From positions 1 through 64,000 of the forward strand of contig NZ_AEGR01000080.1 in NCBI RefSeq assembly GCF_000211835.1: a stretch of DNA of 64,000 nt. The letters run 5' to 3'. This DNA comes from Hylemonella gracilis ATCC 19624. GTDB lineage: Bacteria > Pseudomonadota > Gammaproteobacteria > Burkholderiales > Burkholderiaceae_C. The notes under the pieces were generated by a model. It searched no databases, was not told the origin of the DNA, and saw only the letters and a program-made list of their open reading frames with translations. The position numbers and the translations under genes were made by a program. This document shows positions 49,475 to 53,709 of the stretch, piece by piece; positions within the stretch are counted from its first letter, which is position 1, and the number at the start of each line of letters is the position of its first letter.

Positions 49475-50224
49475 TCAGGCGGCGTTTTCCACCTCGACGA
49501 ACTCGTCGTCGCCCTCGGCGGACACGGCCTTGACCACGTCTTCCACCGCATTGGCACGGCCTTCGAGGATGGCGTCGGCGATGCCGCGGGCATACAGCGT
49601 GACGGCCTTGGAAGAGTCATCGTTGCCCGGAATCACGTAGTCGATGCCTTCGGGCGAGTGGTTGGAGTCCACCACACCGATCAGGGGAATGCCCAGCTTC
49701 TTGGCTTCGGCCACGGCGATCTTGTGGTAGCCGACGTCGATCACGAAAATGGCGTCCGGCAGCGTCGCCATGTCTTGAATACCACCGATGTCTTTTTCCA
49801 GCTTCTCAAGTTCGCGCTGGAACATCAGTTGCTCTTTCTTGGACATCGCGTCCAGGCCAGCTTCCTGTTGAACCTTCATGTCCTTCAGGCGCTTGAGCGA
49901 GGTCTTGACGGTCTTGAAGTTGGTCAGCATGCCACCCAGCCAACGCTGGTCGACATACGGCACGCCGGCACGCTGGGCCTCGGCGGCCACGATTTCACGG
50001 GCAGTGCGCTTGGTTCCCACGAACAGGATGGTGCCGCGACGGGCCGCCAGCTGCTTCGCGAACTTGGCGGCTTCCTGGAACATCGGCAGCGACTTTTCCA
50101 GGTTGATGATGTGAATCTTGCTGCGATGGCCGAAGATGAAGGGGGCCATCTTGGGATTCCAGAAGCGGGTCTGGTGGCCGAAGTGGACACCGGCTTCCAG
50201 CATTTGACGCATGGTCACGGACAT
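49475..50224 (-). CDS. rpsB: 30S ribosomal protein S2
   Basis: 249 residues (E. coli 241). [20 protein letters not shown] start and [14 protein letters not shown] near residue 95 are family signatures. The acidic C-terminal tail ends EVENAA. First gene of the rpsB-tsf-pyrH-frr series, with its own promoter and a long structured leader. Confidence 0.97.
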
Positions 50225-50410
50225 GATTGGTAACTCCGAAGGTTAGAACTTAAATCCGGCCCCTATCGCGACGCCAATGGGACGCCGCAACACCTTTGAT
50301 AGGCCGGTTTGCGATTCACTTCACCCGACAAAAACCGCGTGTTCGCGCCCCGATGAAGGGACAACAGAATGCACAAATGGACTTCGGTCTGGCAAAGCCT
50401 TGGAATTATA
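50225..50410 (-). promoter_or_regulatory. rpsB promoter and structured leader
   Basis: TATAAT at 50410-50405 (minus strand) implies a leader of about 175 nt; the -35 is poor. A long hairpin closes with CCGGCC (50307-50302) / GGCCGG (50261-50256), next to a TATC/GATA pairing, about 30 bases before the start codon. Leaders of rpsB bind S2 for autoregulation in other proteobacteria; this one is similar in position, not shown to match. Confidence 0.42.
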
Positions 50411-50437: not shown

Positions 50438-50983
50438 CTAAAACGCCCACTTCAACAGGACTTGGCTCAGAAAACCATGTCCAACCTCTTCCCCGGTGCG
50501 CAATTCAGCCCCCTTACCCATGCTGCCGCCCTCCAGCGCCACCTTGATTACCCCATTCGAAGGGGTACGCAGCAAAGGAGCTTCGATACCAATCAACAGA
50601 AAACGCCCCGGATTGGAGTCGTTCGCAAAGATTTGCTCGGTGTCCACGAGCCAGAGCAAGCCGCCACGAACATACGTCGTGAGGTTCTCCATCTGATTGC
50701 GGTAACCCAAGCCTGCCATGGCGATCTCATAACCACGCCAAACCGGCACATTGCGCGAAGACGTGTAGGCCTGGCTGTAGCTGAGGCCGACCTGCCAATG
50801 ACCCTGCCCGACATCGAGAGTCAAGCTGCTGCCCTCGTCCTCCGCAAAATTGGCCATGCCCAGGCCCAGCTGCCAATCCAGCGCCAGCGCGGGCCTGACC
50901 GCGCAGACCAGAAGGGCCGCCAATAACGGTGGCAACCACCAACGCAGCCGACGGAAGTACGGGGCGATGCTGTAAGAAGTCAT
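50438..50983 (-). CDS. Small outer-membrane beta-barrel protein, PagL-like fold possible
   Basis: 181 residues: signal peptide (about 1-35), then alternating amphipathic strands suited to an eight-strand barrel, ending in WAF with a C-terminal Phe recognised by BamA. Opening LDWQLGLG and barrel size recall the lipid A 3-O-deacylase PagL, but the PagL catalytic His-x-Ser (HYS) is not there; the equivalent strand reads ALEGGSMG. It starts 10 bases after the LpxQ-like gene, so it is co-transcribed with it. Function unknown; a structural partner or non-PagL enzyme are options. Its stop lies 28 bases before the rpsB -10. Confidence 0.6.
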   Translation of the reverse strand: MTSYSIAPYFRRLRWWLPPLLAALLVCAVRPALALDWQLGLGMANFAEDEGSSLTLDVGQGHWQVGLSYSQAYTSSRNVPVWRGYEIAMAGLGYRNQMENLTTYVRGGLLWLVDTEQIFANDSNPGRFLLIGIEAPLLRTPSNGVIKVALEGGSMGKGAELRTGEEVGHGFLSQVLLKWAF

Positions 50984-50993
50984 GGTGGCCTGC

Positions 50994-51668
50994 TCAGAAC
51001 CTGTAGCCCACGCCAACATTCAAGGCTTGCGTGACGATGTTGGTCTTCAACTCACCCCCGCCCTCGAGACGGGTTGAGTTCTGCGAATAGCTGACCCGGA
51101 AATCGGTGAACGCCAACCACTTGGCGGACATGGCGTAACTGATGCCGCCAATCAACTGCACTGCAGGACCGGCGAGTTGGTATTCGAACGTCTCTCGGCT
51201 CCCGTCGCGAGTCTGCACCTCCACATGGGGGATGGCCAAACCTGCCCCGGCGCCAACGTAAGGGGCATAGCCCGGCATCAGCTGTGGGAAACGGTGCAGG
51301 GCGTTGAGCATGAGCAGGTTCAGCCCATCGGAAAACTCCAGCACCTCGAAGCCACTTTTGCGCAAGGTTTTGTCATCGGCATACACCTTGGCGTGGGTGA
51401 AGTCGAGCGACACCCCCCAGTCGTCCTCGCGCCACCATGTCAAGGCCAATCCATAGTAGGGGGGCTTGCGGCTCAGAGAGTCTCCTCTCCATCCCGCGTT
51501 GAAGTTGAATTTGCCAGCCCCATCGGAATCATCGCCTTTGACTTGACTGTCCGAGGCCCCTTGAATTCCGGTGTAGAAGCGAAACTCGAACTCAGCATGG
51601 GCCGAGGCCGAGCACGCAAGTGCACCGAAGGCAATCAGCAAGGTGGAAATCGCGCGCGACATCAACAT
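50994..51668 (-). CDS. Outer-membrane barrel resembling lipid A oxidase LpxQ
   Basis: 224 residues; AGGAG 7 bases before the first ATG. Signal peptide ends SAHA/EF at residue 25; ends in YRF, a barrel C-terminus. Blocks FNFNAGWRGDSL, PPYYGLALTWWREDDWG, FTHAKVYADDKTL and the late ETFEYQLAGPAVQL and LKTNIVTQALNVGV resemble, from memory, the family annotated as LpxQ in Rhizobium and relatives. LpxQ uses oxygen to turn the proximal glucosamine of lipid A into 2-aminogluconate once the 1-phosphate is gone. The neighbouring phosphatase gene supports that reading. An OmpW-like or opacity-type porin is the alternative. Confidence 0.6.
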   Translation of the reverse strand: MLMSRAISTLLIAFGALACSASAHAEFEFRFYTGIQGASDSQVKGDDSDGAGKFNFNAGWRGDSLSRKPPYYGLALTWWREDDWGVSLDFTHAKVYADDKTLRKSGFEVLEFSDGLNLLMLNALHRFPQLMPGYAPYVGAGAGLAIPHVEVQTRDGSRETFEYQLAGPAVQLIGGISYAMSAKWLAFTDFRVSYSQNSTRLEGGGELKTNIVTQALNVGVGYRF

Positions 51669-51716
51669 GACATCTCCTGGTTGATACAGACCATCGAGCC
51701 CAGATTCGGGATGACT

Positions 51717-52295
51717 TCAAAAGCGCATGCTACAACTGACTTGGACTCGCCCATCGCCGAAATCAGTCTCAATGCGATTGCAAGCCGACGTGTGTTGCCG
51801 TTCGTCCACGAACAGCCAAGTAGAGAAGCCTGCGATCAAGGCGCCACCCGCCACATCGCGCGGGTGATGCGCGCCTGCTTGGATGCGAGAGTAGCCCACA
51901 AACGCCGCCAATGCGTAAGGAACGGCGGCTTGCGAGAAACCGTAGCGCCGATGAATGAATGCGGCCCCGGCAAATGCGGAGGCCGTATGACCGCTGGGAA
52001 AGGAGTCGCGGGCTTCTCCGGAATCGTAGTCCGGGCGTTTTTGCCGGGTCGTTTTTTTCAACGAGTGAACCGTGAGCGCGGTGCTCAGCATCGTCATGCC
52101 GAATTGCGCAACGCCCTCCCCCCCGCTCGTGAACTCGTGTTCGCTGACCGCCATGCCCAAGGCGTAGGTCGGAATCATCAGCTGCAGAAAGTCGCCGGCC
52201 TCTTCCACCCCAGACCGGCCCGCGCCATCGGCGCAAGCGTAGGAACACAACACCCCGCAGCACGCGACCAATCCCCGAAGCCAGCGGTTTCTCAT
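51717..52295 (-). CDS. PAP2 family lipid phosphatase
   Basis: 192 residues. All three acid phosphatase motifs are intact: K80-x6-R87-P88, P100-SGH103, and S136-R-x5-H143-x3-D147. An N-terminal hydrophobic/cysteine-rich signal region (about 1-22) may be a signal anchor or lipoprotein-like signal. Such enzymes remove phosphates from lipid A (LpxE, LpxF), undecaprenyl diphosphate or phosphatidylglycerol phosphate. The short, only partly hydrophobic chain and C-terminal SMRF resemble soluble or peripheral members. 48 bases upstream of the LpxQ-like gene. The 1-phosphatase role is inferred from that neighbour. Confidence 0.82.
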   Translation of the reverse strand: MRNRWLRGLVACCGVLCSYACADGAGRSGVEEAGDFLQLMIPTYALGMAVSEHEFTSGGEGVAQFGMTMLSTALTVHSLKKTTRQKRPDYDSGEARDSFPSGHTASAFAGAAFIHRRYGFSQAAVPYALAAFVGYSRIQAGAHHPRDVAGGALIAGFSTWLFVDERQHTSACNRIETDFGDGRVQVSCSMRF

Positions 52296-52380: not shown

Positions 52381-53709
52381 ATGCCCACGTTCCGCCCCGA
52401 CGCCCACGCCACGTTGAAACGCCTCAGCGAGGGCCTGACGACGTCGGCCGCTGAGATGGAACAGTCGATTGCCTCAGCCCAAAGTGAAGAAGGAGCGCAA
52501 GCCTTCATCTCCACGGACTTCGAGGGCGCTCGTCGACAAGCTCGCGCTGCAGCCGCCAGCTCGCCGCTTGCGGGGCTATCTGTCTCGGTCAAGGACTTGT
52601 TCAATGTCAGAGACCAGACCACGGCGGCAGGCTCCTTGGTGCTGCACCAGGCACCGGTGGCCCAAAGCGACAGCACCGCGGTGGCGCGCCTGAGAGCCGC
52701 AGGCGCGGCCTTCATTGGCCGCACGAACATGAGCGAGTTCGCGTTTTCAGGGGTAGGCATCAACCCACACCACGGCACGCCAAGCAATCCCGCCTACACG
52801 GACCAACCTCGAATCCCGGGAGGTTCTTCGAGCGGGGCTGCAGTCTCGGTCGCCATCGGAGCATCCTTCATTGGCTTGGGTTCGGACACTGGAGGCTCGA
52901 TCCGCATCCCGGCCGCGCTACAGGGCTTGGTTGGGTTCAAGAGCACCGCGCGTCTCGTGCCCACGGACGGCGCCTTGCCACTATCGAGCACGCTGGACAC
53001 GGTCTGCGCCATCACGCGCAGCGTGCGAGATGCCATCCTCGCGCACGAAATCCTCTCTGCACGCGTCGTGCCTCGCTTGAAGAAGACATTGGGAGATTGC
53101 CGCTTCGCCGTGCCTCGCACCTTGATGCTGGACGACTTGGAGCCTCCCGTTGCGCGAGCGTTCGACCGCGCGCTGCAGACGCTGCGCAGTCTGGGCGCCC
53201 AGGTCAAAGACATCACGCTTCCCGAGTTGGAGGAGCTGAGCGCAATCAATTCGACAGGTGGTTTTTCTGCTGCGGAGAGCTATGCCTGGCACCGCGAGCT
53301 GCTGATGACCCAGGGGACGCTTTACGACCCTCGCGTCAAGCTGCGCATGGAACGTGGCGCTGGCATGAGTGCTTGGCAATACATCGAGTTGACTCAGGCG
53401 CGACACGACTGGATCCGGCGCATGACCAGTGCGATCGAGGGCTATGACGCCCTGCTCTCTCCCACCGTGCCCATGCTGGCACCGACCATCGCCCAGGTCG
53501 CCCCCGGACCAGAAAGGGATGACGCGTTCTTCCGCGTCAACGGCTTGTTGCTGCGCAACCCCAGCGTGGTCAATATGCTGGATGGGTGCGCCATCAGCCT
53601 GCCCTGCCAAGCACCTGGCGATGCACCGGTGGGACTGATGCTTTGGCACGGCGCCTTGCGCGATGATGAATTGCTCAACCTCGCACTGGCGCTGGAACCC
53701 CTATTCTGA
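52381..53709 (+). CDS. Amidase signature family enzyme
   Basis: 442 residues. Catalytic Ser-cisSer-Lys triad: Lys71 in VSVKDLF, the cis-Ser in GGSSSGAA (149-154), nucleophile Ser173 in SDTGGSIR. Homologous to GatA, but genuine GatA would be next to gatB/gatC, which are absent; a stand-alone amidase is likelier. Substrate unknown. Divergent from the PAP2 gene (85 bases apart). Confidence 0.88.
   Translation: MPTFRPDAHATLKRLSEGLTTSAAEMEQSIASAQSEEGAQAFISTDFEGARRQARAAAASSPLAGLSVSVKDLFNVRDQTTAAGSLVLHQAPVAQSDSTAVARLRAAGAAFIGRTNMSEFAFSGVGINPHHGTPSNPAYTDQPRIPGGSSSGAAVSVAIGASFIGLGSDTGGSIRIPAALQGLVGFKSTARLVPTDGALPLSSTLDTVCAITRSVRDAILAHEILSARVVPRLKKTLGDCRFAVPRTLMLDDLEPPVARAFDRALQTLRSLGAQVKDITLPELEELSAINSTGGFSAAESYAWHRELLMTQGTLYDPRVKLRMERGAGMSAWQYIELTQARHDWIRRMTSAIEGYDALLSPTVPMLAPTIAQVAPGPERDDAFFRVNGLLLRNPSVVNMLDGCAISLPCQAPGDAPVGLMLWHGALRDDELLNLALALEPLF

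Follow-up and report, generated by a model that had tools for sequence, protein, structure and literature searches.

Can a betaproteobacterium remove the 1-phosphate from its lipid A and oxidise the sugar so exposed, in the manner of Rhizobium, by means of a single set of adjoining genes? The question is raised by a locus of Hylemonella gracilis ATCC 19624 on contig NZ_AEGR01000080.1, of which we analysed positions 1 to 64,000 (this stretch of 64,000 nucleotides is referred to below as the window). Three consecutive open reading frames (ORFs) occupy the minus strand at 50438–52295, and an earlier note, made from the sequence alone, took them for a lipid phosphatase, a barrel protein resembling the rhizobial lipid A oxidase LpxQ, and a second small barrel of PagL-like size. 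Our analysis suggests, with a probability of roughly 0.58, that they constitute a lipid A remodelling cassette in which 1-dephosphorylation would be followed by oxidation to 2-aminogluconate, with the third protein as a partner. The genes are as follows.

51717..52295, minus strand: PAP2-superfamily lipid phosphatase (192 residues; Pfam PAP2 9.8e-18), a secreted-type LpxE candidate
50994..51668, minus strand: LpxQ homologue, a candidate lipid A oxidase (224 residues; predicted eight-stranded outer-membrane barrel)
50438..50983, minus strand: third cassette gene (181 residues; by eye, possibly a small outer-membrane barrel)

The proposal is modelled on the Rhizobium pathway, in which, according to the accessible part of PMC5769089, a 1-phosphatase acts first and an O2-dependent outer-membrane oxidase second. 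By analogy, we infer that the secreted-type PAP2 protein would take off the lipid A 1-phosphate and that the outer-membrane LpxQ-type barrel would use O2 to oxidise the freed anomeric carbon of the proximal glucosamine, yielding 2-aminogluconate, with the third protein serving as cassette partner; the net conversion of proximal glucosamine 1-phosphate to 2-aminogluconate would register in the mass of lipid A as 80 Da lost and 16 Da gained. Substrate, chemistry and the order of the two steps are carried over from that precedent, and the substrate of the PAP2 protein is less firm than the LpxQ assignment because LpxE enzymes accept undecaprenyl diphosphate and the host has other PAP2 genes. The host is, judged by the 16S similarity that places it in Burkholderiales (94.7% identity to Variovorax, 94.2% to Comamonas and 93.2% to Mitsuaria, for copies in the plasmid collection), a betaproteobacterium, as the earlier note had supposed.

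Evidence that the middle gene is an LpxQ homologue

An authentic rhizobial lpxQ gene was pinpointed through the primer pair published in PMC3123555. Both primers lie without mismatch in Rhizobium johnstonii/leguminosarum 3841 (locus L113, 9858–9880 and 10752–10775) and bracket a barrel ORF of 224 residues; the amplicon so defined is 918 bp, and the accessible part of that paper states 850 bp. Comparison of the window protein, also of 224 residues, with this ORF gave 43% identity and 62% similarity over 227 columns (E = 2e-59), which bears out the likeness to LpxQ seen in the earlier note, and a protein search of the plasmid collection returned near-full-length relatives in Rhizobium and Sinorhizobium with 44.5% and 45.7% identity. 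In an alignment of the window protein with 27 of the 80 named LpxQ loci, the window protein keeps 32 of the 35 columns that are invariant across the other 27 members, including H92, K94, Y96, E111, D114, N117 and H148, as well as 20 of the 24 further columns in which one residue is found in at least 25 of the 27. AlphaFold2, run with the family alignment, predicted an eight-stranded barrel pattern (mean predicted local distance difference test score (pLDDT) 82.8, predicted template modelling score 0.76), in keeping with the barrel of the earlier reading. In barrels of this kind both termini are usually periplasmic; if this holds here, the strand order of the model would place the invariant charged and histidine residues toward the extracellular end, near the lipid A of the outer leaflet. 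Taken together, these comparisons strongly support 50994–51668 as a full-length LpxQ homologue, and this is the firmest part of the assignment.

The barrel might be a generic one of the OmpW or opacity type that lies beside an unrelated phosphatase by coincidence. Pfam gives only the broad OMP_b-brl family above its curated cut-off (4.1e-9), and of the 28 members of the LpxQ class, 17 have a match to Opacity as well (best 1.6e-10) and three have one to OmpW (best 0.0016). Against this stand the E value of the match to authentic LpxQ, the conservation of the three genes as a unit at a site that is otherwise empty (described below), and a wide gap in E value between LpxQ-class matches and the rest in a sample of 397 genomes of the phylum: matches below 1e-58 were found in 20 genomes (the window's own, six of family f59 and 13 of family f63), followed by two at 3.5e-29 and 5.0e-25 and then by matches at 6.8e-11 or weaker. 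We therefore consider a coincidental grouping highly improbable. A better fit to OmpW or to the opacity porins, the outcome that the earlier note had singled out as decisive against LpxQ, is ruled out by the match to LpxQ and by the Pfam search, which listed neither family for the window protein at E ≤ 1.

The three genes are inherited as a unit upstream of rpsB

As the earlier note had described, the cassette lies directly upstream of rpsB. The features that mark its borders are these.

49475..50224, minus strand: rpsB, the right flank of the insertion site
52381..53709, plus strand: a putative amidase-type gene, the left flank of the insertion site
50405..50410, minus strand: TATAAT ahead of rpsB, assigned as a promoter by eye

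Of 26 genomes of the genus, two have a strong LpxQ match, namely the window's own and G659, and two others have weak ones (2.0e-10 and 2.3e-4). G659 carries all three cassette genes in the same order at the same site, with identities to the window of 70% for the PAP2 protein, 83% and 76% for two pieces of LpxQ, and 84% (over residues 21–181) for the third protein. We found rpsB in 20 of the 26 genomes. In all of these except the window's own and G659 (18 genomes), the amidase-type gene adjoins rpsB, the two matches being some 160 to 290 bp apart; none of the three cassette genes had a match at the rpsB site of these 18 congeners, 12 of which were checked in longer regions. One of the genomes with an empty site, G658, has an identical rpsB protein, and the stretch with the TATAAT, a sequence that in the window lies 27 bp beyond the end of the third ORF, is present at its empty site as well. 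Since G659 shares all three genes at a site that is empty in the other 18, we conclude that the cassette is a genuine three-gene unit and not a chance grouping; it was either gained in these two lineages or lost in the others.

Nei–Gojobori estimates of the ratio of nonsynonymous to synonymous substitution rates (dN/dS) between the window and G659 were 0.20 for the PAP2 gene, 0.056 for LpxQ residues 1–174 and 0.175 for residues 176–224, and 0.088 for the third gene, with 0.149 for the amidase-type gene. Because these ratios are low, all three cassette genes are under purifying selection as proteins. The intergenic gaps are 48 nt between the PAP2 and barrel genes and 10 nt between the barrel and the third ORF, and a single transcript is therefore possible. 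The latter gap assumes that the third ORF begins at the ATG at 50983 (181 residues), 10 nt past the barrel stop codon, and not at the program-listed start at 51019 (193 residues); we prefer the former because the G659 orthologue likewise begins right after the barrel gene. A search for a sigma-70-type promoter of the cassette found none, and terminator-like sites were near the level of shuffled sequence (four found versus a mean of 2.6, standard deviation 1.7). The guanine plus cytosine content of the three genes (0.59–0.61) is slightly under the 0.63 of the window. At this locus, homology and the predicted barrel fold are joined by gene order, co-inheritance in two species and purifying selection.

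The phosphatase resembles a secreted class of LpxE

The first gene has the intact PAP2 signature that the earlier note had reported (KX6RP, PSGH and SRX5HX3D, read from the translation), and its match to Pfam PF01569 is above the curated cut-off. The best solved chain for the protein is Aquifex LpxE (6ebu; 31.8 bits, residues 97–155). By eye, its N terminus resembles a signal peptide and its C terminus (...VQVSCSMRF) a strand. Past the N terminus the best 19-residue Kyte–Doolittle window scores 1.05 and none reaches 1.6, whereas a protein of strain 3841 that we take to be its LpxE (L155, named from its length of 244 residues and its map position) has four such windows at 1.83–2.17.

A class of "non-standard" lipid A 1-phosphatases with a signal sequence, weakly hydrophobic helices and a C-terminal barrel has been reported from P. 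gingivalis and 21 further species, and for the P. gingivalis type an outer-membrane location is predicted and not yet proven, as stated in the available portion of PMC12704123. The window protein resembles that class, as there described, in the low hydropathy of its helices and, by eye, in what may be a signal-type N terminus. Its top two matches in the plasmid collection, from Ruegeria (44% over 154 residues) and Halioglobus (43% over 154 residues), are 426 and 420 residues long and, like the P. gingivalis-type enzymes, bear a barrel-like C-terminal domain, with weak matches to OMP_b-brl (6.8e-4 and 4.8e-4, under the cut-off) and, for Halioglobus, a match to DUF481 above the cut-off (9.1e-6). 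The window protein differs in ending at 192 residues, without a fused barrel of about 200 residues, and in being followed by further genes. Several short proteins of the window's PAP2 class also end, by eye, in a strand-like stretch whose last residue is aromatic, a possible signal for the outer membrane. These features suggest that the window protein is a phosphatase of secreted type, possibly of the outer membrane.

Relatives of the third gene were found only in the congener

The third protein has, by eye, a signal-peptide-like start and a C-terminal phenylalanine, as in small barrels, and is possibly a small outer-membrane barrel. Apart from its orthologue in G659, no match was found in 248 other genomes of the phylum or in the plasmid collection, and searches of NCBIfam and the PDB gave only chance-level matches. 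The earlier description of this gene as PagL-like is not supported: neither the window protein nor that of G659 has a Pfam match, to PagL or to any other family, at E ≤ 1. Two further candidate relationships were set aside by profile comparisons, which carry limited weight given that the third-gene profile holds only two sequences: the protein as the detached barrel half of a PAP2–barrel protein (0.13% probability) and the protein as a relative of LpxQ (1.15%). A comparison of LpxQ with the C-terminal barrel-like domain of the Ruegeria and Halioglobus PAP2 proteins gave 10% probability.

A more specific form of the cassette reading is that the three proteins make up a processing line at the outer membrane, in which an outer-membrane-type LpxE that lacks a fused barrel would dock on, or be served by, the products of the next two genes, and 1-dephosphorylation and oxidation would take place together on exported lipopolysaccharide. 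We offer this tentatively and regard it as rather unlikely. If it were true, the third gene would encode a novel lipid A or assembly factor, and the arrangement would differ from that of Rhizobium, in which the work is divided between canonical LpxE in the inner membrane and LpxQ in the outer one.

Pairing of PAP2 and LpxQ genes elsewhere

The pairing of phosphatase and oxidase proposed in the earlier note is sustained by the cassette shared with G659 and, less firmly, by a divergent PAP2 relative in two alphaproteobacterial genomes. In a survey of 99 LpxQ-bearing loci by tblastn with five PAP2 queries, a PAP2 gene was found near LpxQ in G659, in the alphaproteobacterial genome G507 (family f63), where the end of the PAP2 ORF and the LpxQ match are at most a few bases apart, and in Sinorhizobium B11, where an LpxE-like PAP2 gene (44% over 130 residues to the 3841 candidate) lies on the opposite strand 2.2 kb from an LpxQ copy. 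G339, also of family f63, has a relative of the G507 PAP2 gene (48% over 163 residues) at the position that is taken by LpxQ in other f63 genomes, flanked on one side by petA/petB/petC-like genes and on the other by a glutathione S-transferase-like gene (all named by eye); LpxQ had no match in that 10-kb region of G339, nor was this genome listed among the matches in the 397-genome sample. The co-occurrence that the earlier note had proposed to look for thus recurs, at few loci, and the association appears to be rare or to have been partly missed by tblastn.

Weighing the cassette reading against alternatives

A number of findings weigh against the cassette reading. The window PAP2 protein scores 26.1 bits against the NCBIfam LpxE equivalog, for which the cut-off is 177 (the model is narrow, as the LpxE-like PAP2 protein of Sinorhizobium is likewise without a match at E ≤ 0.01), and it is far from rhizobial LpxE in the PAP2 tree. 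Its class, found at E ≤ 1e-18 in 27 of 328 genomes of the phylum, consists largely of short proteins: in 25 of the 27 the match lies in an open frame of only 174–248 residues, and the remaining two frames, of 284 and 372 residues, are not as long as the barrel-bearing proteins. In the tree, the window and G659 proteins group with a short form, from G327 (support 98/94), and not with the two barrel-bearing ones; the G327 gene is flanked by two ORFs with starts like those of secreted proteins, one with a weak barrel match (8.6e-5, under the cut-off) and the other with none. A PAP2 gene near LpxQ at 3 of 99 loci is a low count, and the proteins of G507 and G339, which make up a divergent clade (branch 2.99), have by eye a Q in place of the final D of the motif and lack a regular KX6RP, so that they may not have phosphatase activity of the same kind. 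The LpxQ gene of G659 is frameshifted near residue 175 (L149:8031-8734, in a single-contig assembly), through either sequencing error or decay. Other members of the PAP2 class adjoin diacylglycerol kinase(-like) or phosphoethanolamine-lipid A transferase genes, neighbours that hint at other substrates, and the host carries two further PAP2 genes whose scores resemble those of lipid A phosphatases:

G000:C68:8643-9008: LpxF-like PAP2 gene of the host, elsewhere in the genome (90.8 bits, under the cut-off of 400)
G000:C74:32040-32423: PAP2_lipid_A-like gene of the host, elsewhere in the genome (76.5 bits, under the cut-off of 275)

The low hydropathy of the helices, together with the NCBIfam score, argues against a canonical inner-membrane LpxE. 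In one alternative, the barrel is an LpxQ-type oxidase, the PAP2 protein acts on undecaprenyl diphosphate or phosphatidate, and a different host phosphatase removes the 1-phosphate. LpxE enzymes are also active on undecaprenyl diphosphate (C55-PP) and phosphatidylglycerol phosphate (PGP), according to the accessible part of PMC6581854, and the window's PAP2 class adjoins an annotated diacylglycerol kinase in Parabacteroides and, by eye, genes reading like DgkA in two genomes; the two host genes listed above would be candidates for the 1-phosphatase. Counting the other way, the PAP2 gene is co-inherited with LpxQ in one cassette, and its divergent relative has two further links to LpxQ, in G507 and G339. 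On balance we think a different lipid substrate unlikely, though it deserves to be taken seriously.

The LpxQ protein itself raises a different doubt, for it differs at R75, T120 and E189, which are invariant across the other 27 members, and lacks the APHS motif common in the family. The homology could be real and the oxidase activity lost, the barrel having drifted to another role in lipid A or surface biology, such as binding or PagL-like hydrolysis. Such drift would be compatible with the altered positions, with an identity to LpxQ of only 43%, with a branch of 0.74 whose placement is poorly supported, and with the finding that no solved structure matches the LpxQ family profile at E ≤ 1; we also know of no reported active-site residues for the family. 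It fits poorly with the dN/dS of 0.056 over residues 1–174 and with the 32 invariant positions that are kept, and PagL-like hydrolysis in particular is disfavoured by a score of 15.5 bits against the PagL profile, under its cut-off of 23. We judge drift of this kind improbable and retain the cassette reading, in which the barrel would be an oxidase.

Distribution of the LpxQ class

Strong LpxQ homologues occur mainly in Rhizobiaceae and Rhodobacterales-type genomes in the samples that we searched. Family f59 is taken to be Rhizobiaceae because the forward lpxQ primer site is present in 8 of 80 genomes of one of its genera (at most two mismatches), and the neighbourhood of LpxQ in f63 is common to named Rhodobacterales loci. 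At the looser threshold of E ≤ 0.001, an LpxQ query matched 65 of the 397 genomes of the phylum sample and 3 of 150 in a sample of the family (the window's own and two weak matches at 1.4e-4 and 4.1e-4); in a sample of the class, 4 of 369, the window's own included, matched at E ≤ 1e-12.

A scan of genome contigs confirmed 153 LpxQ loci, of which the best 80 were used. A tree of 45 LpxQ proteins unites the window and its congener in one clade (100/100), which falls within neither the Rhizobiaceae group nor the main Rhodobacterales group and stands, with low support (80/32), beside a copy from a Sulfurovum metagenome-assembled genome (MAG). A recent transfer from Rhizobiaceae or Rhodobacterales is not favoured, as the window protein is nested in neither main group, with low support at the nodes nearby (82/51 and 80/32).

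The survey also turned up LpxQ-class genes in unusual settings. The Sulfurovum (Campylobacterota) copy (L046:9983-10630; 51% identical) lies on a 172-kb contig next to a gene reading like DNA polymerase III alpha, and the family may reach beyond Pseudomonadota unless the bin is mixed. In genome G856 a protein of 415 residues (L166:5593-6840) matches LpxQ in its N-terminal half (9.4e-21) and, by eye, resembles a second barrel in its C-terminal half, and one f63 genome has LpxQ-class genes in a tandem pair (L143, G336:C6:320104-321417). After the LpxQ copies on two rhizobial megaplasmids (L004:6802-8870 and L005:6859-8903) come paired genes for a response regulator and a histidine kinase, an arrangement that suggests regulated lipid A oxidation. 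A contig assigned to an Arenimonas MAG (L072) has an LpxQ gene and neighbourhood of the Ciceribacter type and is probably contamination.

Discussion

The comparison with known systems refines the earlier description of this locus in two respects: the phosphatase appears to belong to a secreted type, perhaps located at the outer membrane, and no family could be detected for the third gene. With LpxQ of Rhizobium leguminosarum/etli the middle protein shares full-length homology, its length of 224 residues, the predicted eight-stranded barrel and nearly all of the invariant positions, but its host belongs to Burkholderiales, it sits on a long branch whose exact place is poorly supported, and its cassette includes a phosphatase, in contrast to the examined flanks of LpxQ in strain 3841, where no PAP2 gene was found. 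With canonical LpxE (Rhizobium, and Aquifex 6ebu, the best solved match) the phosphatase has the PAP2 signature in common, and it differs in its much lower hydropathy than the 3841 candidate and in its distant place in the tree. A short secreted-type PAP2 protein of 176 residues encoded on an Aeromonas plasmid (L128:2938-3468) is also comparable, with 41% identity over 132 residues and the same GD..Q..P motif past the N terminus; its gene lies beside two MCR-3-related phosphoethanolamine-lipid A transferase genes, and the neighbouring features examined do not include an LpxQ.

In the open-access literature searched, from which subscription papers are mostly absent, reports of LpxQ or lipid A oxidase concern, by their titles, rhizobia or Rhizobiaceae, with the exception of one computing paper, and in the accessible parts of open-access lipid A papers on Oligotropha, Liberibacter and Pasteurella, and of a synthesis review, aminogluconate is mentioned for Rhizobium lipid A or merely cited. 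Aminogluconate also led to a lipid A paper on Phyllobacterium, and the topic of betaproteobacterial lipid A 1-phosphatases to a single paper, on Achromobacter. LpxQ oxidation is thus familiar from rhizobia, and what we describe here is a clear homologue that lies, in a betaproteobacterium, in a compact cassette with a phosphatase. Related genes are present in Rhodobacterales, and the cassette provides a natural operon in which the two-step chemistry could be tested. The pairing of a PAP2 protein with a putative outer-membrane oxidase also bears on where the P. gingivalis class of phosphatases discussed in the available portion of PMC12704123 may act, at the inner or at the outer membrane.

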